Assembly: GCF_900112525.1 (NCBI RefSeq)
Contig: NZ_FOMD01000001.1
Coordinates: 868,001-932,000 of the forward strand
Length of the DNA: 64,000 nucleotides
From: Klenkia taihuensis
Lineage (GTDB): Bacteria > Actinomycetota > Actinomycetes > Mycobacteriales > Geodermatophilaceae
Reading direction: 5' to 3'
The notes beneath the pieces are model-generated. The model was not told where the DNA came from. It ran no database searches and saw nothing but the letters and a program-made list of their open reading frames with translations. Of this stretch, positions 2,624 through 9,828 are shown one piece after another. The position numbers were made by a program, and so were the translations under genes. Position 1 is the stretch's first letter, and each line of letters starts with the position of its first letter.

Positions 2624-3016
2624 TCAGCTGCCCGGCGGTCGCTCGTCCCGCACGTGGAAGCGGTGCCAGAGGCCCGACAGCTGCAGCGGCCGGGCGACGA
2701 CGGTGGTGCCGACCAGCAGCTCCAGCTCCGCGCCGCGGCCCTCGAGCATGCGGTGCAGCTGGACGACGGTGGACAGCCCGGCCGAGTTGAGGAAAGTGAC
2801 GCCGTGCAGGTCCAGCAGCACCCGCGACGGCGGGTCGCCGCCCAGCAGCAGGTCGGTGACCTCGCGGATCACCGGCCGGCGGGCCTCGGCCGTGAACTCG
2901 CCGGTGACCGTGATCCGGGCGCCGTCCGGGCCGGTCCGGTCGACCGACACCTCCGGGACGGCGGCGTCGACGGGGCTGTCGGCGGGGGCGGGCGGCGGAT
3001 CACCAGGACTCGTCAC
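2624..3016 (-). CDS. STAS-domain anti-sigma factor antagonist
   Basis: 130 residues with a Pro-rich N-terminal tail (about 30 residues) and one STAS domain. The segment LLDLHGVTFLNSAGLSTVV holds the Asp-x-Ser/Asn-Ser region in which Ser is the phosphorylation site in SpoIIAA/RsbV proteins. It would act in the cytoplasm by binding an anti-sigma kinase in a partner-switching pathway; no partner kinase is encoded in this window. It lies downstream of the histidine kinase on the same strand, with a 55-base gap, so it may be co-transcribed with the redox operon. The GTG start is uncertain. Confidence 0.82.
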   Translation of the reverse strand: MTSPGDPPPAPADSPVDAAVPEVSVDRTGPDGARITVTGEFTAEARRPVIREVTDLLLGGDPPSRVLLDLHGVTFLNSAGLSTVVQLHRMLEGRGAELELLVGTTVVARPLQLSGLWHRFHVRDERPPGS

Positions 3017-3071: not shown

Positions 3072-4613
3072 TCACCGGGGGTCGTCGAGCAGCTCTGGGT
3101 CGAGGTCGGCGCTGACCACCGTGGCGTGCGGCAGTCGGATGGTGAACTGCGTGCACCCGGGCTCGCTGGCCACCGCCACCGTGCCGTGGTGGGCGGTGAC
3201 GACCGCGTCGACGATCGCCAGCCCCAGGCCGGTGGACCCGGCCTGCCGGGAGCGGGAGGAGTCGCCGCGGGCGAACCGCTCGAACACGTGGGCCGCCAGC
3301 TCGGGCGGGATCCCCGGGCCGTCGTCGACCACCTGCAGCACCGCCCAGCCGCCCTCGGCGCGCAGCCGCGCGGTGGCGGTGGAGCCGGCGGGGGTGTGCG
3401 TGCGCGCGTTGGCCAACAGGTTGGCCAGCACCTGGTGCAGCCGGGCGGCGTCGCCGGGTACCAGCACGCCGTGGTCGGGCAGCTCGACCCGCCACCGGTG
3501 GTCGGGGCCGGCTGCGTGCGCGTCGGAGACGGTGTCGACCACCAGCGCGGCGAGGTCCACCTCGTCGACCGAGAGGTCGCGGCCGGCGTCCAGGCGGGCC
3601 AGCAGGAGCAGGTCCTCGACCAGGCCCGACATCCGCACCGCCTCGGACTCCACCCGACGCAGCGCGTGGCCCACCTCGGGCTCGACGTCGGCGTGCTGCC
3701 GGCGCACCAGCTCGGCGTAGCCGCGGATGGAGGCCAGCGGGGTGCGCAGCTCGTGGCTGGCGTCGGCGACGAACTGCCGCACCTGCGTCTCCGACGCCTG
3801 GCGGGCGGCCAGCGAGCCCTCGACGTGGTCGAGCATGGTGTTCAGCGCCGCCCCGACCTGGCCGACCTCGGTGCGCACGTCGGTGTCGGCCGGCGGCACC
3901 CGCTCGGCCAGCTGCACCTCACCGGTGGACAGCTCCAGCTGCGACACCCGGGTCGCGGTGGCCGCGACCCGGTCCAGCGGCCGCAGCTGCCGGCGGATGG
4001 TCAGCCCGGCGGCCAGCGCGGCCAGCAGGACGGCGACCACCCCGGCGACCAGCTCGACCACGACCAGCCGGGCCAGCGCCTTGCTCACCCCGGTCAACGG
4101 CAACCCGGTGACCACGACGGCGCCGTCGGGCACGGTCTCGGCCTGCGCCCGGTACGTGCCGAGGTCGTCGCCGAGGTCGACGGTCACCGGCCGGCCGTCG
4201 ACGGGCAGCCCGGCCAGCACGGCGCTCTGCGCGGCGCTCAGCGCCGTCCGGTCGCCGCTCCGGTCGATGACCACGGCGTTGGAGACCTCGCCGTCGTCCA
4301 GGTACGCGACCACGGTGCCCTCGCCCTGACCGGGGCCGCCGAAGTCCTCGGGGCCCTCGCCCTCGGGCGGCTGGCCCCCGGGCGGCTGGGGCCGGTCGTC
4401 GTAGTCGTCGGCGTACATGAGCGCCCGGTAGCCCGCCCCGCCCAGCTCCTCGTCGACCTGGGTCACCAGCTGGTGCCGCAGGGTCAGGGTGGAGACCAGC
4501 CCGACCACGCCCAGGACCACCACGGTCGGGACGAGGAAGGCCACCAGCAGGCGAGCCCGCAGCGAGAGCCGCCGTCGGGCGGGTCGGGCTGCGGGCTCGG
4601 TGCTGCCGGTCAT
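3072..4613 (-). CDS. Sensor histidine kinase
   Basis: A 513-residue membrane kinase. TM1 is at about 21-45. An extracytoplasmic sensor loop of about 130 residues contains a Pro/Gly/Glu-rich stretch (75-100). TM2 is at about 181-206, followed by HAMP. HisKA has the phospho-accepting His near residue 287 in ASHELRTP. The ATPase domain shows the N box (LANLLANARTHTP), G1 (DDGPGIPP) and G2 (GSTGLGLAIV). Its gene starts 7 bases after the response regulator stop, so the two form a cognate pair. Because that regulator overlaps the ferredoxin gene, the kinase is probably transcribed with the redox operon and may sense redox state or a cell-envelope signal; that is inference. Confidence 0.93.
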   Translation of the reverse strand: MTGSTEPAARPARRRLSLRARLLVAFLVPTVVVLGVVGLVSTLTLRHQLVTQVDEELGGAGYRALMYADDYDDRPQPPGGQPPEGEGPEDFGGPGQGEGTVVAYLDDGEVSNAVVIDRSGDRTALSAAQSAVLAGLPVDGRPVTVDLGDDLGTYRAQAETVPDGAVVVTGLPLTGVSKALARLVVVELVAGVVAVLLAALAAGLTIRRQLRPLDRVAATATRVSQLELSTGEVQLAERVPPADTDVRTEVGQVGAALNTMLDHVEGSLAARQASETQVRQFVADASHELRTPLASIRGYAELVRRQHADVEPEVGHALRRVESEAVRMSGLVEDLLLLARLDAGRDLSVDEVDLAALVVDTVSDAHAAGPDHRWRVELPDHGVLVPGDAARLHQVLANLLANARTHTPAGSTATARLRAEGGWAVLQVVDDGPGIPPELAAHVFERFARGDSSRSRQAGSTGLGLAIVDAVVTAHHGTVAVASEPGCTQFTIRLPHATVVSADLDPELLDDPR

Positions 4614-4620
4614 GCCTCGA

Positions 4621-5394
4621 TCATGCGTCCTGCCGGACGGCGGGCTTGATCACGTAGCCGGCGCCCCGCAGCGTGTGGATCATCGGGGTGCGGCCGGCGT
4701 CGATCTTGCGGCGCAGGTAGGAGATGTAGAGCTCGACGATGTTGCCCTGACCGCCGAAGTCGTACTGCCAGACGCGGTCGAGGATCTGGGCCTTGGACAG
4801 CACCCGCTTGGGGTTGCGCATCAGGTAGCGCAGCAGCTCGAACTCGGTGGCGGTGAGCCGGATGTCGTCGCCGCCGCGGGTGACCTCGTGCGACTCCTCG
4901 TCCAGGGTCAGGTCACCGACCACCAGCAGGCCGTCGTCGGCGACCGCGCGGGAGGTGCGGCGCAGCAGGCCGCGCAGCCGGGCCGCGACCTCCTCCAGGG
5001 AGAACGGCTTGGTGACGTAGTCGTCGCCGCCGGCGGTCAGCCCGGCGATGCGGTCCTCGACGGCGTCCTTGGCCGTCAGGAAGACGACCGGGACCAGCGG
5101 GGAGTCCGCGCGCAGCCGGCGCAGCACCTCCAGCCCGTCCATGTCGGGGAGCATGACATCCAGGACGACGGCGTCGGGGCGGAACTCACGGGCGGCGCGC
5201 ACGGCCTCCGCGCCGTCGGCGGCGGTCTTGACGTCCCAGCCCTCGTAGCGGAGGGCGAGGGAGAGCAGCTCGCAGATCGAGCGCTCGTCGTCGACGACGA
5301 GCACGCGCAGGGCGCTGCCGTCCGGGCGGGTGAGCTGGGCCCGGGAGGCGTTGGCGGTCCCGGCGGGGCGAGAGTCGATCGCGGTCATGGACAT
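4621..5394 (-). CDS. OmpR-family response regulator
   Basis: 257 residues: a 28-residue N-terminal tail, a receiver domain (VLVVDDE; phospho-acceptor Asp at about 79 in VVLDVMLPDMDG; Lys in VTKPFS) and a winged-helix DNA-binding domain ending in HTLRGAGYVIK. The ATG at 5392-5394 is chosen because GGAAGG lies 11 bases upstream and because it shares one base with the ferredoxin stop (TGATG), a classic coupling junction. A second ATG two codons on is possible. It pairs with the downstream kinase. It resembles the PhoP/MprA/TrcR type; the target genes are unknown, but autoregulation of the upstream redox genes is likely. Confidence 0.92.
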   Translation of the reverse strand: MSMTAIDSRPAGTANASRAQLTRPDGSALRVLVVDDERSICELLSLALRYEGWDVKTAADGAEAVRAAREFRPDAVVLDVMLPDMDGLEVLRRLRADSPLVPVVFLTAKDAVEDRIAGLTAGGDDYVTKPFSLEEVAARLRGLLRRTSRAVADDGLLVVGDLTLDEESHEVTRGGDDIRLTATEFELLRYLMRNPKRVLSKAQILDRVWQYDFGGQGNIVELYISYLRRKIDAGRTPMIHTLRGAGYVIKPAVRQDA

Positions 5395-5654
5395 CACTGT
5401 GCGGACCTTCCCTGCGTGCTTCCTGTGAGCCGTCCAGGAAGTGGCTGTCGGACCCCGGTGCGCTCCAGGAGCAGGGCGCGCGCGGGGCAGGCCGCGACGG
5501 CGCGCCGGGCCGGGCGGTGCAGCTCGCGGGGGAGCTCCCCGGCCGCCAGCAGGGGGTAGCCCCACTCGTCCAGGGCGACGGCCTCGGGCAGCAGGTCGGC
5601 GCAGGCGCCGTGGCCGGTGCAGGCGATGCGGTCCACGCGCAGCCGCTCGCTCAC
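5394..5654 (-). CDS. Single-cluster ferredoxin with a Cys-to-His ligand change
   Basis: 86 residues, the size of actinobacterial cytochrome-P450-type ferredoxins. Ligand candidates are Cys12, Cys18 and Cys56. The second canonical Cys is replaced by His15, giving CTGHGAC (CxxHxxC) with CPARA later. This favours a [3Fe-4S] cluster or a His-ligated [4Fe-4S] cluster. A basic Arg/Gln-rich tail follows. The GTG start overlaps the NuoF-like stop by four bases (GTGA), and its own stop overlaps the response regulator start. It probably carries electrons between the NuoF-like flavoprotein and the membrane cytochrome encoded upstream. Confidence 0.88.
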   Translation of the reverse strand: MSERLRVDRIACTGHGACADLLPEAVALDEWGYPLLAAGELPRELHRPARRAVAACPARALLLERTGVRQPLPGRLTGSTQGRSAQ

Positions 5655-6838
5655 CGGGCACCCCCCGGCACGGGCAGGAACGCGGGGGCGCCCGGCGCGG
5701 CGGTGCAGCGGCCGGCGGCGTGCTCGGCGAGCTCCGGGGTGAACACCCGCAGCGCGCTGGCCACCAGCCGGACGCTGCCGTCGGGGTGCGTGCAGGCGCC
5801 GCGGCCGACCACCAGGCCGGCCCAGCGCTCCAGGTCGGCCAGCAGCCCGGGCCGCCGCGGCCCGGGCCGGGCCAGCAGCTCCAGCGCGGCGGCGATCCGG
5901 GGCAGGCCGTTGAGGCACGGACCGCACTGCCCGGCCGACTGCGCGGCCAGGTAGGCCAGCACGGACGCCGTCTCGCGCACCCCGCACCGGTCCGCGGGCA
6001 GCGCGGCCAGCACACCGGCGCCCAGCGAGGCCCCGACCGAGGCCAGGGCGGACCGCTCCAGGGTCAGGTCCGCGGCGACCGCGGGAGGCAGCCAGCTGCC
6101 GTGGTAGCCGCCGACGAGCACCGCCTGCGTGCCCGGGGCCAGCGGCAGCACGTCGGCCAGCCGGGCGCCCAGCGGCACCTCGGCGACGTCCACCCGCCCC
6201 GCCGTGTGCCGGGTGACCAGGGTGTGCCCGGCTGCGTCGTCCCCGCGGGCCAGCAGCGCGAGCCGGGCCAGGGTCTCCACGTTCTGCACCAGCGTCGGCC
6301 GGCCCCGCACGCCGCGCTGCCATACCGGCGGCACCTTGCCGCGGGGCAGCGAGGGCCCGCCGTCGACGGCGGCCACCAGGGCGGTCTCCTCGCCGGCCAG
6401 GAACCGGTCGGGCAGCCCGACCAGCCGCACCCGGCCGCGGTCGCCGCGCTCGGCCAGCGCCCGGTCCAGGCCGCCCAGCTGGGAGTGCGCCGCGGCGAGC
6501 ACGACGGTGTCGGCGCCGACCGCCCGGGCGGCCAGCTGCAGGCCGTCGAGCACCAGGTGCGGGGAGCGGGCCAGCAGGGTGGCGTCCTTGGCCGCGGCCG
6601 GCTCGCCCTCGCCGCCGTTGCCGACGACGACGGCGGGAGTCCCCGCGGCCCGGGCGGCCTCGGCGACCGCGTGCAGCTTGCGGGCGGTGGGGAAGCCGGC
6701 GCCGCCGCGGCCGGTGAGGTCGCCGACGAAGGAGGTCGGGTGGCCGCCGTGCGGCAGCGGTCCGTGGGCGGCCACGTGCGCGGCCAGCGACGGGTCGCCG
6801 GTGCCGAGCAGGCCGCGGGTCAGGGGAGGGGCGCTCAT
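5651..6838 (-). CDS. NuoF-like NADH-binding flavoprotein (51-kDa type)
   Basis: 395 residues, shorter than NuoF (about 430-450). GRGGAGFPTARK (43-54) is the glycine-rich NADH/FMN loop and GNGGEGEP (73-80) the next conserved FMN patch. VQNVETLA and an SLBB-like region follow. The C-terminal cluster site reads SAGQCGPCLNG: Cys305 and Cys308 are kept and Cys349 follows in GRGACTHPDG, but the first of the four N3-cluster cysteines is Ala302. It would oxidise NADH in the cytoplasm. It is part of the redox operon and not of a complex I cluster: no other nuo gene is present. Confidence 0.88.
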   Translation of the reverse strand: MSAPPLTRGLLGTGDPSLAAHVAAHGPLPHGGHPTSFVGDLTGRGGAGFPTARKLHAVAEAARAAGTPAVVVGNGGEGEPAAAKDATLLARSPHLVLDGLQLAARAVGADTVVLAAAHSQLGGLDRALAERGDRGRVRLVGLPDRFLAGEETALVAAVDGGPSLPRGKVPPVWQRGVRGRPTLVQNVETLARLALLARGDDAAGHTLVTRHTAGRVDVAEVPLGARLADVLPLAPGTQAVLVGGYHGSWLPPAVAADLTLERSALASVGASLGAGVLAALPADRCGVRETASVLAYLAAQSAGQCGPCLNGLPRIAAALELLARPGPRRPGLLADLERWAGLVVGRGACTHPDGSVRLVASALRVFTPELAEHAAGRCTAAPGAPAFLPVPGGAR

Positions 6839-6843
6839 GTCGG

Positions 6844-7473
6844 TCACCTGTTCCGGAAGGCCGGGACGCGCCCGGCGGGGAGGTCGGCGCGGGTCCGCGC
6901 CAGGGCGGCGGGGGCACGGTCGAGGGCGGGGCGGACCCGCAGCCGGCCGGTGACGGCGACGGCGGTGGCGGCCGCGACGGCGACCGCGCAGGCCACCGCG
7001 CCGGCGAGCAGCCAGCCCGAGCCGAGGTCGGTGCCGGCGCCCAGGCCGTGCACGAAGGCCAGCGGCCACAGCGCGTAGGAGGTCCGGTGCACCCCGCGCC
7101 AGACCCGCAGCGGCAGCCGGCCGCGCAGCAGGCTGGTGACGACCACCAGGGCCGTCAGGTCGACGGCCAGGGTGCCCAGGCCCACCCAGGAGGTCTCGTA
7201 GCCGGCGACGAAGGGGACGACGGTGTCCAGCCAGCCGATGCTGACGTAGCCGTCGACCGCCGCGCTGACCACGTGCACCACCAGGAGCACCGCCGAGACC
7301 AGCGAGACGTCGCGGTGCAGCCCGACCGTGCCGAACCGGGGCAGGCCGGGCAGCCGCACCTGCCGCTGCACCAGCACGCCCAGCACGACCGTCGCGGTCA
7401 TGAGCAGCAGCGAGACCAGGCCGGTGGCCCGGTTGAGGTACCAGAGGAAGGACCCGTCGGACAGCACGCTCAC
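6844..7473 (-). CDS. Ferric-reductase-like two-haem membrane cytochrome
   Basis: 209 residues with about six hydrophobic segments. Two histidine pairs in neighbouring helices, His53/His67 (x13) and His129/His142 (x12), are the bis-haem b ligands of the ferric reductase/NOX/MsrQ superfamily. No FAD or NAD domain is attached, so electrons must come from separate proteins, here the NuoF-like protein and ferredoxin. The C-terminal 50 residues are Arg-rich and cytoplasmic. The GTG start overlaps the ApbE stop by four bases (GTGA); five bases separate its stop from the next gene. It should move electrons from the cytoplasmic face to an outside acceptor. Confidence 0.85.
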   Translation of the reverse strand: MSVLSDGSFLWYLNRATGLVSLLLMTATVVLGVLVQRQVRLPGLPRFGTVGLHRDVSLVSAVLLVVHVVSAAVDGYVSIGWLDTVVPFVAGYETSWVGLGTLAVDLTALVVVTSLLRGRLPLRVWRGVHRTSYALWPLAFVHGLGAGTDLGSGWLLAGAVACAVAVAAATAVAVTGRLRVRPALDRAPAALARTRADLPAGRVPAFRNR

Positions 7474-8396
7474 GCCGGCCACCCCCCGCAGGTGACGACG
7501 TCCCCGTGCTCGGTGACCAGCCGGGCCGGCAGCCCGAGCTCGCGCAGCCACGGCAGGGCGGCGTGCCCGCGGACGACGGCGGCGGTGCTCACCGTGTTGG
7601 CGTCGGTGCAGCTGCCGGCCGCGACGCTGACGGTGCGCCACACCGGGCGGGTGGGCAGCCCGGTGCGGGGGTCGAGCAGGTGGTGCACCTCGACCCCGCC
7701 GCGCAGCCAGCGGCGGGCGCGGGTGCCGGAGGTGGCCAGCCCGCCGTCGACGACCGAGACGGTGGCCGAGCCGGGCGGGGGCGGGGCGTCCGGGTCGCCG
7801 GTGACGTCCTCGACCCGAATCCGCCAGCCGCCGTCGGGGGCGGGGCCCGCGACGGCGACGTCCCCGCCGATCGACACCAGCACGCCGGCGCCGGTGCGGT
7901 CGGCGACGGCGGCCGCGGCCCGGTCGGCGGTCCACGCCTTGACGGTGGCGCCGAGGTCGAGCCGGGCGCCCCACGGGATCCGCACCCGGTCGCCGTCCAG
8001 CTCGACGGTCCGCCACCCGGCGACGGGGGCGAGCACCGGCGGCACGGTGCCGGGGTCGACGTCGGCCAGGTCGCGGTCGTAGCCCAGCGCGGTCATCGCG
8101 CCGCCGACGGTGGGGTCGACGTGCCCGTCGGTGAGCCGGGCGGCGCGCAGCGCGACGGCCAGGGCCTCGGCCAGCAGCGGGCCGACCGGGGTCCACCGCC
8201 CGGCGCCGGCGTCGACGGCGGCCAGGTCGCCATCGGGGCGGAAGCGGCTGCAGGCGGCGTCCACGGCGGCGATCTCGCGCTCGACGACGTCGCGGGCCGC
8301 GGGCAGGGCGGCGGGGTCGGTGACGGCGAGCCGGACCCGGCAGGTCCACACGGTCCAGTCGGCGGTGGCGACGGCGCGGTCCCGCAGCGCGGTCAC
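7470..8396 (-). CDS. apbE: FAD:protein FMN transferase (ApbE)
   Basis: 308 residues, usual for ApbE. Visible signatures are FRPDGDLAAVDAG near the N-terminus, LDLGATVKAWTADRA (FAD pocket), VSIGGDVAVAG (the S-x-GG-D/N site) and SCTDANTVSTAAVV, the Mg-binding Asp/Thr loop. No clear signal peptide or lipobox. ApbE attaches FMN covalently to Ser/Thr of target domains on membrane redox proteins. GTGA overlaps join it to the gene on each side, so all are one operon. No FMN-bind (DxxSGAT) target was seen nearby, which is unusual. Confidence 0.9.
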   Translation of the reverse strand: MTALRDRAVATADWTVWTCRVRLAVTDPAALPAARDVVEREIAAVDAACSRFRPDGDLAAVDAGAGRWTPVGPLLAEALAVALRAARLTDGHVDPTVGGAMTALGYDRDLADVDPGTVPPVLAPVAGWRTVELDGDRVRIPWGARLDLGATVKAWTADRAAAAVADRTGAGVLVSIGGDVAVAGPAPDGGWRIRVEDVTGDPDAPPPPGSATVSVVDGGLATSGTRARRWLRGGVEVHHLLDPRTGLPTRPVWRTVSVAAGSCTDANTVSTAAVVRGHAALPWLRELGLPARLVTEHGDVVTCGGWPA

Positions 8397-8653
8397 GACG
8401 ACCCGCTCGAGGCGTGGGAGGAGCCGCCGTGGCCGGCGCCGACGCCGCCGGGGGGACCCGAGAGCCGTCCGCCGTCCCCGGTGCTCGTGCCCGGGTCGGT
8501 CGCGGTGGTGGTGGCGCTCTCGGCGGCGGCCGGGTGGGCGTCGGCGACGACGACGGTCAGCGCGCCGGTGCCGACCAGGGCGCCGCCGGCGACGGCGGCG
8601 GTGACCAGCCGGACGCGGCGGGTGCCGCGGCGGCGGGCATCGGTGGGGTCCAC
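8393..8653 (-). CDS. Small single-pass membrane protein heading the redox operon
   Basis: 86 residues: a basic N-terminus (DARRRGTRRVR), one hydrophobic helix at about 16-38, then a 45-residue Ser/Thr/Gly-rich outside tail ending SSHASSGSS. In comparable actinobacterial clusters this place is often taken by an FMN-binding membrane protein; here that domain and its DxxSGAT motif are absent. The stop overlaps the apbE start (GTGA). It could be a shortened FMN-binding protein or an assembly factor; I cannot name its function. Its upstream flank is only about 100 bases to the tRNA-Phe gene. Confidence 0.7.
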   Translation of the reverse strand: MDPTDARRRGTRRVRLVTAAVAGGALVGTGALTVVVADAHPAAAESATTTATDPGTSTGDGGRLSGPPGGVGAGHGGSSHASSGSS

Positions 8654-8756
8654 GGGTCCTCCTCGGGTGACGAGGAGGACGGTGCCCGGCGCGGCGATGA
8701 GCAGCCGGTGCGGATGGTGTGCGGAGTCTGTGCGACCCGGCGGGTGGTGGAGGGGG

Positions 8757-8830
8757 TGGCCAGGGGCGGGGTCGAACCGCCGACCTCTCGCTTTTCAGGC
8801 GAGCGCTCGTACCGACTGAGCTACCTGGCC
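8757..8830 (-). tRNA. tRNA-Phe (GAA)
   Basis: Cloverleaf with acceptor stem GGCCAGG/CCTGGCC, anticodon stem CTCGC/GCGAG and loop CTGAAAA (anticodon GAA), and T-arm GGTTCGACC. No encoded CCA. Third of a three-tRNA array. Confidence 0.97.
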
Positions 8831-8859
8831 CCAGCCCGACATCCGTGGACATCGGTCGG

Positions 8860-8933
8860 CGACCCTGACGGGACTCGAACCCGCGACCTCCGCCGTGACA
8901 GGGCGGCGCGCTAACCAACTGCGCTACAGGGCC
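8860..8933 (-). tRNA. tRNA-Asp (GTC)
   Basis: Acceptor GGCCCTG/CAGGGTC with discriminator G, anticodon stem CCGCC/GGCGG and loop CTGTCAC (anticodon GTC), and T-arm GGGTTCGAGTCCC. No encoded CCA. Confidence 0.97.
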
Positions 8934-8975
8934 TTGCTGAACTACTGGGCTGTGCTGCTGTGGATCTGTGGTGCG

Positions 8976-9048
8976 TGCCCCCAACGGGGTTCGAACCCGT
9001 GCTACCGCCTTGAAAGGGCGGCGTCCTGGACCACTAGACGATGAGGGC
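8976..9048 (-). tRNA. tRNA-Glu (TTC)
   Basis: Acceptor GCCCTCA/TGGGGGC (one G-U pair), anticodon stem CCGCC/GGCGG with loop CTTTCAA (anticodon TTC), and T-arm ACGGGTTCGAACCCCGT. First gene in the Glu-Asp-Phe order on the minus strand; the three are probably one transcript. The 3' coordinate may be off by one base. Confidence 0.96.
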
Positions 9049-9132: not shown

Positions 9133-9717
9133 TCAGGAGGCGGTCACCGACGAGCGGTCCACGGGGTGCGCTACCGGGTCGGCGACCGGCGAGGACCGGT
9201 ACTGCTCGATGTACTCCTCGGGGTCCTTGTCGTAGGTGATGCCCTCGCCGGAGTCGTGCGCGTACCGCCAGTCCAGCCAGCGCAGCGCCAGCTCGGCGCG
9301 CAGCTCGACCGAGGCGTTGCGGCGGAAGTCCGGCAGCGCGTCGTGCTCCTCCTCGGCGAGGTGGTCGTCGTTCTCCTCGCGGGCCTTGCGCACAGCGGCC
9401 CACCACGCCTCCGAGCCCGGCTCCTCCTTTTTCGCGGCCGCCACGGCGTCACGGATCTCGTCGTGGTCGCCGATCGCGTCGTCGGTCTCGTCCACCACGT
9501 CGCCCTCGGTGGCGTCGTCGTCGCCGGAGTCGCCGTACTTCAGCAGGTAGGGGTAGAAGACCTCCTCCTCGCAGGCGGCGTGGACGTCGAGCATCCGGGC
9601 CAGGCCCTTCCAGATCATCCCCAGCGCACGCGGGTCGTCCCAGCAGTCGTCGAGCAGGGCGAACTGGCGCCGCATGGTGTGGTGGTCCTCGAGGACCAGG
9701 TCGCAGACGTCGAGCAC
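9133..9717 (-). CDS. Hemerythrin HHE cation-binding protein
   Basis: 194 residues, all helical in appearance. Metal-ligand motifs in order: LEDHHTMRRQF, HAACEEEVFYPYL (H-x3-E), GDHDEIRDAV and HLAEEEHDALPDF (H-x4-E-H). A C-terminal WRYAHDSGEGITYDKDPEEYIEQYR tail follows. Such proteins bind a di-iron centre and are tied to O2/NO or iron handling and to stress; the exact ligand is unknown. The GTG at 9715-9717 is chosen because GGAAGG lies about 6 bases upstream; the in-frame ATG about 100 bases further up would add a basic, unlikely leader. It is a single gene downstream-facing to the tRNA array. Confidence 0.87.
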   Translation of the reverse strand: MLDVCDLVLEDHHTMRRQFALLDDCWDDPRALGMIWKGLARMLDVHAACEEEVFYPYLLKYGDSGDDDATEGDVVDETDDAIGDHDEIRDAVAAAKKEEPGSEAWWAAVRKAREENDDHLAEEEHDALPDFRRNASVELRAELALRWLDWRYAHDSGEGITYDKDPEEYIEQYRSSPVADPVAHPVDRSSVTAS

Positions 9718-9828
9718 GGGTGGCCTTCCGGTCGGGGGGGTGTTCCGGGCGCACCCGTCCCCGGTCCGGCGGTCCCCGAAACGGCAGGGCACCCTCACCT
9801 GACCCGCCGTGCGTGCCACGCTGGCCGC

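Follow-up and report, generated by a model that had tools for sequence, protein, structure and literature searches.

Electron transfer based on flavinylation has been described in a survey of gene clusters published in 2021 (PMC8238504), which reports MsrQ-like clusters with ApbE broadly in Actinobacteria and lists 31 of such clusters with a NuoF-like protein. The MsrQ-like clusters typically hold a gene for a flavin mononucleotide (FMN)-binding domain (FMN_bind), and the known substrates of ApbE comprise FMN_bind, NqrB/RnfD, DUF2271, DUF3570, Flavodoxin_4, and FMN_red (PMC8238504; PMC11334425). Here, we analyzed a stretch of 64,000 nucleotides (nt) of Klenkia taihuensis (contig NZ_FOMD01000001.1, positions 868,001 to 932,000; hereafter the window) that carries a redox operon of seven genes, all on the minus strand and running from window position 8653 to 3072. 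An initial annotation, made from the sequence alone, regarded this operon as a redox module with odd iron-sulfur (Fe-S) sites and knew of no described system of the same make-up. Clusters combining MsrQ-like, ApbE, and NuoF-like proteins are in print, and the operon shares with them ApbE, a two-haem cytochrome of PF01794, and a protein of PF10589. The PF01794 cytochrome stands together with apbE at the locus, a combination expected of an MsrQ-like cluster. On the other hand, the protein in the slot of the FMN_bind gene is free of any domain in the window, and no FMN_bind was found in the genome. The redox module stands, while its Fe-S features are ordinary for the family. The novelty lies in the gene at the head of the operon, whose tail had been passed over and which represents a putative class of ApbE substrates; the known part is the flavinylation-based electron transfer. 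The genes of the operon are as follows.

8393-8653, minus: small membrane protein of 86 amino acids with a GTG start and no Pfam match (hereafter the tail protein)
7470-8396, minus: ApbE, flavin adenine dinucleotide (FAD):protein FMN transferase family (PF02424, 2.8e-48); no signal peptide seen
6844-7473, minus: MsrQ-like/ferric-reductase-type membrane cytochrome (PF01794, Ferric_reduct, 1.9e-8)
5651-6838, minus: NuoF-like protein, FMN/nicotinamide adenine dinucleotide (NAD) region (PF01512, Complex1_51K, 9.7e-30; PF10589, NADH_4Fe-4S, 1.6e-13)
5394-5654, minus: ferredoxin of the CXXHXXC(X)nCP class (PF13459, Fer4_15, 7.2e-13)
4621-5394, minus: OmpR/PhoB-type response regulator (Response_reg and Trans_reg_C)
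3072-4613, minus: HAMP-type sensor histidine kinase (HisKA and HATPase_c)

Of all features of the operon, the C-terminus of the small protein was the most telling. The protein has an Arg-rich N-terminus, one membrane helix, and a low-complexity linker, and ends with HASSGSS (codons at 8396-8416, minus strand), the proposed flavin attachment tag with the last Ser as the proposed acceptor. The AlphaFold model comprised a helix at residues 3-39 and a short helix at residues 41-47 and otherwise no fold, with a mean predicted local distance difference test score (pLDDT) of 54.6 (below 50 in the linker; the alignment behind the model had 11 rows). A Pfam scan found no family for this protein or for five other tail proteins scanned. 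The upstream open reading frames (ORFs) of the relatives are alike in their last residues and differ in length and linker. We assessed 102 loci with a match of at least 100 bits to the window ApbE (tblastn) and at least 600 nt upstream, repeat genomes included, and skipped 39 others in which the flanks were short or the ApbE match was weak. ORFs were filtered for a membrane helix and a low-complexity tail, the last four residues being ignored, and one directly upstream of ApbE was retained in 97 of the 102 loci, corresponding to 86 distinct proteins. The end [ST]x[GAS]S was found in 83 of the 86, against 12.3 (standard deviation 3.0) expected from internal four-residue stretches. Among the 34 tails with an internal pattern rate of 5% or lower, 32 end in this pattern (0.45 expected), and the last residue is Ser in 84/86 tails (29.8 expected from composition). 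The narrower end [ST]G[AGS][ST] was seen in 62 and the exact ApbE motif, D-x-x-[ST]-G-A-[ST], in 30 of the distinct tails. Within the five redox proteins of the window, [ST]G[AGS][ST] occurs only at the tail end and as TGST at residue 77 of the ferredoxin. Six loci gave two candidates, of which the one nearer to ApbE was kept; none of the six discarded ends in the pattern.

Three tails fell outside the pattern: L051, of which the end HATSGATS holds a full SGAT plus one extra residue and which we count for the tag, L146 (STGGSGG), and L162, which is an FMN_bind protein. Five loci appeared tail-less in the first pass (L063, L148, L101, L071, and L128). L063 has a tail beside its cytochrome, the genome of L148 has one beside separate cytochrome-NuoF genes (L120), and L101 has an ORF missed by the filter and ending with RTSGS; the other two are considered below.

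Control ORFs elsewhere in the loci and the window that passed the same filter ended in the pattern in 21 of 626 cases, and 15 of these 21 were tail proteins of this kind by reading, leaving 6. Noise of Ser-rich ORFs was therefore rejected on the internal four-residue rate and the control ORFs, albeit with a pattern set post hoc. When the loci were entered via the Pfam model of ApbE instead of NuoF, 22 ApbE places without FMN_bind beside them were found. Twenty of them were fetched (all but the window's own and that of genome G324), of which L151 (too short) and L154 (no match to window proteins) were not assessable. The pattern adjoins ApbE in 16 of the 18 assessable places, the exceptions being L146 and L148; several of these genomes are also among the NuoF-fetched loci. 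Searching DNA for the tail end gave two matches in the own genome versus three for a reversed-pattern control, and the match counts in the 41 genomes examined (the own genome plus 40 relatives) were likewise close to the control. The own-genome count alone thus shows nothing, and its weight lies in both matches being helix-plus-tail proteins.

The tail proteins of mycobacterial type (L058, L060, L062, L064, L066, L069, L070, L074, L075, L078, L080, L088, L092, and L120) end with S-[RH]-G-S (SRGS or SHGS), most with a linker rich in Pro, Ala, and Thr; at several of these loci, the tail gene adjoins the cytochrome gene and ApbE is absent. Two tail proteins per locus were also seen, after the ferredoxin and before the regulator (L086 and L094) or one on each side of the two-component pair (L140).

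The slot of the tail protein is occupied by an FMN_bind protein in one operon. ApbE was found in 25 of the 41 genomes and FMN_bind in 12 (13 matches), each adjoining an ApbE, so that 13 genomes possess ApbE without FMN_bind; the own genome (4.3 Mb) is one with a single ApbE. Genome G322 carries two sister operons: the slot holds a tail ending with SASSGGS in L152 and an FMN_bind protein (PF04205, 2.2e-7) in L162, the latter locus being the exception among the relatives in having an FMN_bind gene in such a cluster. In the ApbE phylogeny, the 12 ApbEs of the FMN_bind loci and the 67 other ApbEs were cleanly split with a Shimodaira-Hasegawa-like approximate likelihood ratio test (SH-aLRT) value of 99. 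The ApbEs of L152 and L162 were sisters (SH-aLRT of 99) within the side of the 67. This tree was inferred from 79 of 106 rows, 27 Streptomyces rows being dropped for thinning, by a quick method with no mixture model or bootstrap, and gave a warning of long branches, L146 among them. As both occupy the same slot of sister operons, we regard the tail protein and a canonical flavoprotein as substitutes for each other in this one context. A loose screen of the 13 FMN_bind loci (L155-L167) marked three additional ORFs, but a tail protein passing the helix filter was seen at L162 only. Genome G249 (L132/L136) has a tail and ApbE, whereas neither the cytochrome nor the NuoF-like protein was matched anywhere in it above the thresholds applied, and the tail can thus accompany ApbE alone. 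At a locus of genome G325 (L150), a tail and ApbE were seen without adjoining cytochrome and NuoF-like genes, which sit on another contig.

Given the gene order, the conservation of the tail end, the association with one ApbE clade, and the FMN_bind swap in one operon, we consider it rather probable that the operon constitutes a transmembrane electron path ending in a flavin that ApbE tethers to the small protein at its C-terminal Ser. Reduced NAD (NADH) would be oxidized at the FMN of the NuoF-like protein. From there, the three-Cys cluster of this protein and the [3Fe-4S]-type ferredoxin would relay the electrons to the two-haem cytochrome in the membrane, which would conduct them outward. 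The acceptor outside would be FMN attached by ApbE to the last Ser of the small protein. The latter would be made of a membrane anchor and a disordered linker, with the last residues as the whole recognition site and no FMN-binding fold, and the free-swinging flavin would hand the electrons to some acceptor at the outer face. In 83 of 84 tail proteins, Arg and Lys are more numerous before the helix than behind it, and the tail is thus predicted to lie outside the cell by the positive-inside rule. The window ApbE has no hydrophobic N-terminus. Among 23 ApbE loci inspected, a hydrophobic stretch was found in the open frame in two (L012 and L077), upstream of the chosen start. Since ApbE carries no signal peptide, modification of the tail would take place in the cytosol and precede its export. 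In 11 of the 12 FMN_bind loci, the ORF with SGA[ST] terminates 26-80 nt ahead of the ApbE domain, leaving little room for a signal on these ApbEs; seven FMN_bind-locus partners with a readable start begin with a membrane segment by inspection. In this group of bacteria, modification ahead of export may be the norm.

The second [DH]xx[ST]Gx[ST]-stop match in the own genome is a helix-plus-tail protein of 101 amino acids.

L168:1501-1806 = G000:C10:755481-755783, outside the window, minus: second tail protein, ending with DASSGSS

Homologues of this protein (E-value of 1e-18 or better) were found in five genomes of the genus, that of the window included, and in each case the gene follows the same pair of marR-like and osmC-like genes. 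Among nine Klenkia genomes, seven possess ApbE, the cytochrome, and the NuoF-like protein, and the operon tail is present by DNA pattern in all of the seven; the other two (G297 and G299) have none of the three proteins. G297 gave six DNA-pattern matches, none spelling [ST]x[GAS]S, and G299 gave one (DRSSGSS), which ends a 66-residue open frame without a helix. A protein search found no tail in G297 or G299, yet this silence is weak evidence because the same search also missed the operon tail of G301. Altogether, we lean slightly towards the broader proposal that Actinobacteria carry a natural flavin tag, namely a membrane-anchored disordered tether that would be flavinylated by a cytosolic ApbE on its final Ser and then exported, with no flavin-binding fold. 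The arrangement would be modular, one ApbE serving the operon tether and the second tether behind marR-osmC, and would explain a share of the 'orphan' ApbEs in print.

The known ApbE substrates (PMC8238504; PMC11334425) bear an [ST]GA[ST]-like acceptor and are encoded near apbE, as is the tail protein, and the FMN_red members resemble it in having their sites on an unstructured C-terminal extension (PMC11334425). In contrast, the known substrates as described there all have a folded domain, while the tail protein has one helix, no Pfam domain, and a proposed acceptor at the final residue. Another likeness is found in Flavin-tag, an engineered ApbE tag (PMC12052999; PMC10722498): a stretch of seven residues is enough for ApbE, and tags perform best when placed at the N- or C-terminus (PMC12052999), which we count for the tag proposed here. 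Flavin-tag is man-made, whereas the window end is a relaxed form of the motif, with His replacing Asp and Ser replacing Ala. DUF4266 (PMC8238504) is also a small secreted protein of a flavinylation cluster with a conserved C-terminal motif, but the motif is CXC, with proposed thiol cycling in DsbD systems. The same survey reports ApbE-bearing genomes without FMN_bind and, even after adding DUF2271 and DUF3570, was left with 4% of genomes in which an ApbE lacks a known substrate; genes for which neither a signal peptide nor a lipid site was predicted were excluded there. The tail proteins escape domain searches as they have no domain, and we found no description of them in the literature searched, outside of which were bioRxiv and most subscription journals. 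If the proposal is true, a substrate could consist of no more than a helix with a linker and an end of seven residues, widening what counts as a flavoprotein. A redox cofactor could then function on an unfolded tether, and the orphan ApbEs in streptomycetes, mycobacteria, and their relatives would gain a testable partner. For the second tail, with its marR/osmC context, a flavin tether linked to peroxide stress would put this tag to a separate use.

Several points weigh against the natural flavin tag. Flavinylation itself, as well as the direction of electron flow, the topology, and the end acceptor, is what we infer, and the end pattern was defined after the tails had been seen, which holds for both the internal-rate and control tests. 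The 30 exact motif matches are not independent, since nearly all are of Streptomyces (28 from Streptomyces or Streptomyces-like loci and 2 from Geodermatophilaceae). HASSGSS of the window departs from the ApbE motif at the two positions noted above, of which the Asp is essential according to PMC10722498, whereas PMC12052999 reports a minor effect only for Asp to Ala and flavinylation about halved for Ala to Val. Thr is preferred in the motif and Ser accepted less well (PMC12052999). The mycobacterial ends lack Gly before the small residue, and the end of L146 is off the pattern altogether. ApbE is present in L071 and L128 but no tail was found at either locus; L049 and L079 have the cytochrome and NuoF-like genes with enough flank but no ApbE nearby, and no tail was found there. 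In L162, a tail protein lies on the other strand at about 2.5 kb from ApbE, alongside FMN_bind. ApbE is cytosolic by sequence while the tail is predicted outside. Finally, the absence of FMN_bind, DUF2271, NqrB/RnfD, and DUF3570 from the own genome, which together with the single ApbE speaks for the tag, comes from a search that did not extend to Flavodoxin_4, FMN_red, and the fumarate-reductase type.

The alternative that fares best, though we hold it unlikely, is that the conserved C-terminus provides the cytochrome/NuoF complex with a signal for docking, sorting, or protection from proteolysis and that ApbE acts on another protein. It would account for the several mycobacterial loci in which the tail stands beside the cytochrome and NuoF-like genes and ApbE is absent (of the 13 loci listed with a cytochrome match of more than 100 bits, 9 show a tail) as well as for the variation in the tail ends (SGAS, SGGS, SRGS, and SSGS). 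However, G249 retains the tail and ApbE without a match to either component of that complex, FMN_bind occupies the slot in L162, and the tail end resembles the ApbE motif, exactly so in 30/86 tails; moreover, the four substrate families searched for have no match in the genome. Less probable still is that ApbE acts as an FAD pyrophosphatase or FMN supplier to the NuoF-like protein, with the tail as a passenger. The Treponema pallidum homologue has been described to have such an activity on FAD (PMC4767422), but tail and ApbE occur together across distant lineages, also without NuoF, and the last four residues are kept, which is not expected of a passenger. A DNA-level effect of the overlap with the ApbE start (ribosome site, GTGA/ATGA) can be dismissed almost entirely: in 50/86 tails, the stop codon and the extrapolated start of ApbE overlap or are at most 4 nt apart, but the stop is more than 10 nt away from ApbE in 25/86, tails far from any ApbE keep the same end, and the last codons vary synonymously (four Gly codons at position -3 and five Ser codons at -1), so that the constraint acts on the protein.

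The layout of the redox genes around the tail protein largely agrees with the initial annotation. The five redox genes run in one direction, and base 5394 is common to the ferredoxin stop and the regulator start; the regulator-kinase spacing is 7 nt. The four-base overlaps assigned to most junctions were found, as GTGA, at three (small protein/ApbE, ApbE/cytochrome, and NuoF/ferredoxin), while the cytochrome/NuoF junction has a 5-nt gap. The proposed ordered set recurs as well: ApbE, the cytochrome, the NuoF-like protein, and the ferredoxin were all present in 87 of the 110 loci fetched with the NuoF-like protein, many of the incomplete ones ending at contig ends or flank limits, and 86 of the 87 had the same order and strand. 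The gene set thus exceeds chance. The window ApbE is a putative FMN transferase judging from its family (PF02424, 165 bits, profile positions 7-258 of 266) and aligns to solved ApbE structures; counts of its catalytic motif by regular expression (85, 89, 52, and 2 of 94) were too crude and not relied on. The cytochrome has two His pairs as putative haem ligands by inspection. The sequence and fold of the NuoF-like protein and the MsrQ/ferric-reductase type of the cytochrome support the cytosol-to-membrane module that had been suggested, in which the NADH path would be as outlined above.

The NuoF-like protein aligns with the subunits that bind NAD in complex I and in bifurcating hydrogenases, and its closest named relatives are of Klenkia (Geodermatophilaceae), with up to 91% identity. 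It scored 124.8 bits against the curated NuoF family TIGR01959 and did not reach the cut-off of 558.65. The predicted model (pLDDT of 88) keeps the Nuo51/NuoF fold, the best Foldseek matches being NuoF/HydB/NfnB subunits (template modeling scores of 0.75-0.83 by query length), but is uninformative on the cluster because it is poor at residues 45-47 and 345-352. The cluster motif reads Ala302, Cys305, Cys308, and Cys349, and these four residues are invariant in the chosen 41-row alignment of loci. The Ala in place of the first of four Cys is present as annotated but is no oddity. In 109 distinct homologous stretches, found by a pattern demanding the other three Cys, this position is Ala in 108 and Leu in one, and none of them keeps all four Cys. 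Ala302 is thus a family trait and not a local change. Cys285 is invariant in all of the 109 homologues; the matched solved hydrogenase/Nfn subunits keep both a Cys equivalent to Ala302 and one equivalent to Cys285, so that the conservation of the latter is no sign of compensation. Selenocysteine was also considered for several homologues flagged with one inner TGA and rejected on re-reading: in nine such loci, TGA in the translated match occurs, where present, only as the ordinary stop at the gene end.

The ferredoxin motif reads C12-x-x-H15-x-x-C18, and the best solved relatives are FdxE and Fdx of M. tuberculosis. His15, which had been taken as unusual, belongs to a class already described: ferredoxins with CXXHXXC(X)nCP were examined along with other members, and those examined, His forms included, were isolated as [3Fe-4S] (PMC6237146). 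The window ferredoxin has the same motif and size as the CXX?XXC(X)nCP class, which is described there beside cytochrome P450 genes, whereas the window ferredoxin gene adjoins the NuoF-like gene. In 116 distinct homologues, the '?' position is His in 84, Arg in 28, Val in two, Phe in one, and Ala in one, and thus never Cys; CP is present in 111. By motif class, we propose that the window ferredoxin is of the [3Fe-4S] type, one of the two options raised in the initial annotation. The other, His ligation, is not implied, as the position also takes Arg, Val, Phe, and Ala, and His as a ligand was rejected as the likely case, the published His forms being [3Fe-4S].

The coupling to the two-component pair is genuine in this lineage without defining the system, and the view of the operon as having its own regulator holds regionally. 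A regulator match of more than 150 bits was found in 21 of the 127 loci with this ApbE (repeats included) and was absent in 106. The pair directly follows the ferredoxin in Klenkia-type loci; at other loci, it precedes the tail gene (L140), follows additional tail genes (L086/L123 and L094), or is divergently oriented (L124 and L153).

Genes for tRNA-Glu, tRNA-Asp, and tRNA-Phe lie directly upstream of the operon on the same strand (8755-9048, minus). The ORF at 9133-9819 (minus) resembles a hemerythrin-type (HHE) protein, and that at 2624-3016 (minus), directly downstream of the kinase, a STAS-type anti-sigma factor antagonist, both judged by eye only.

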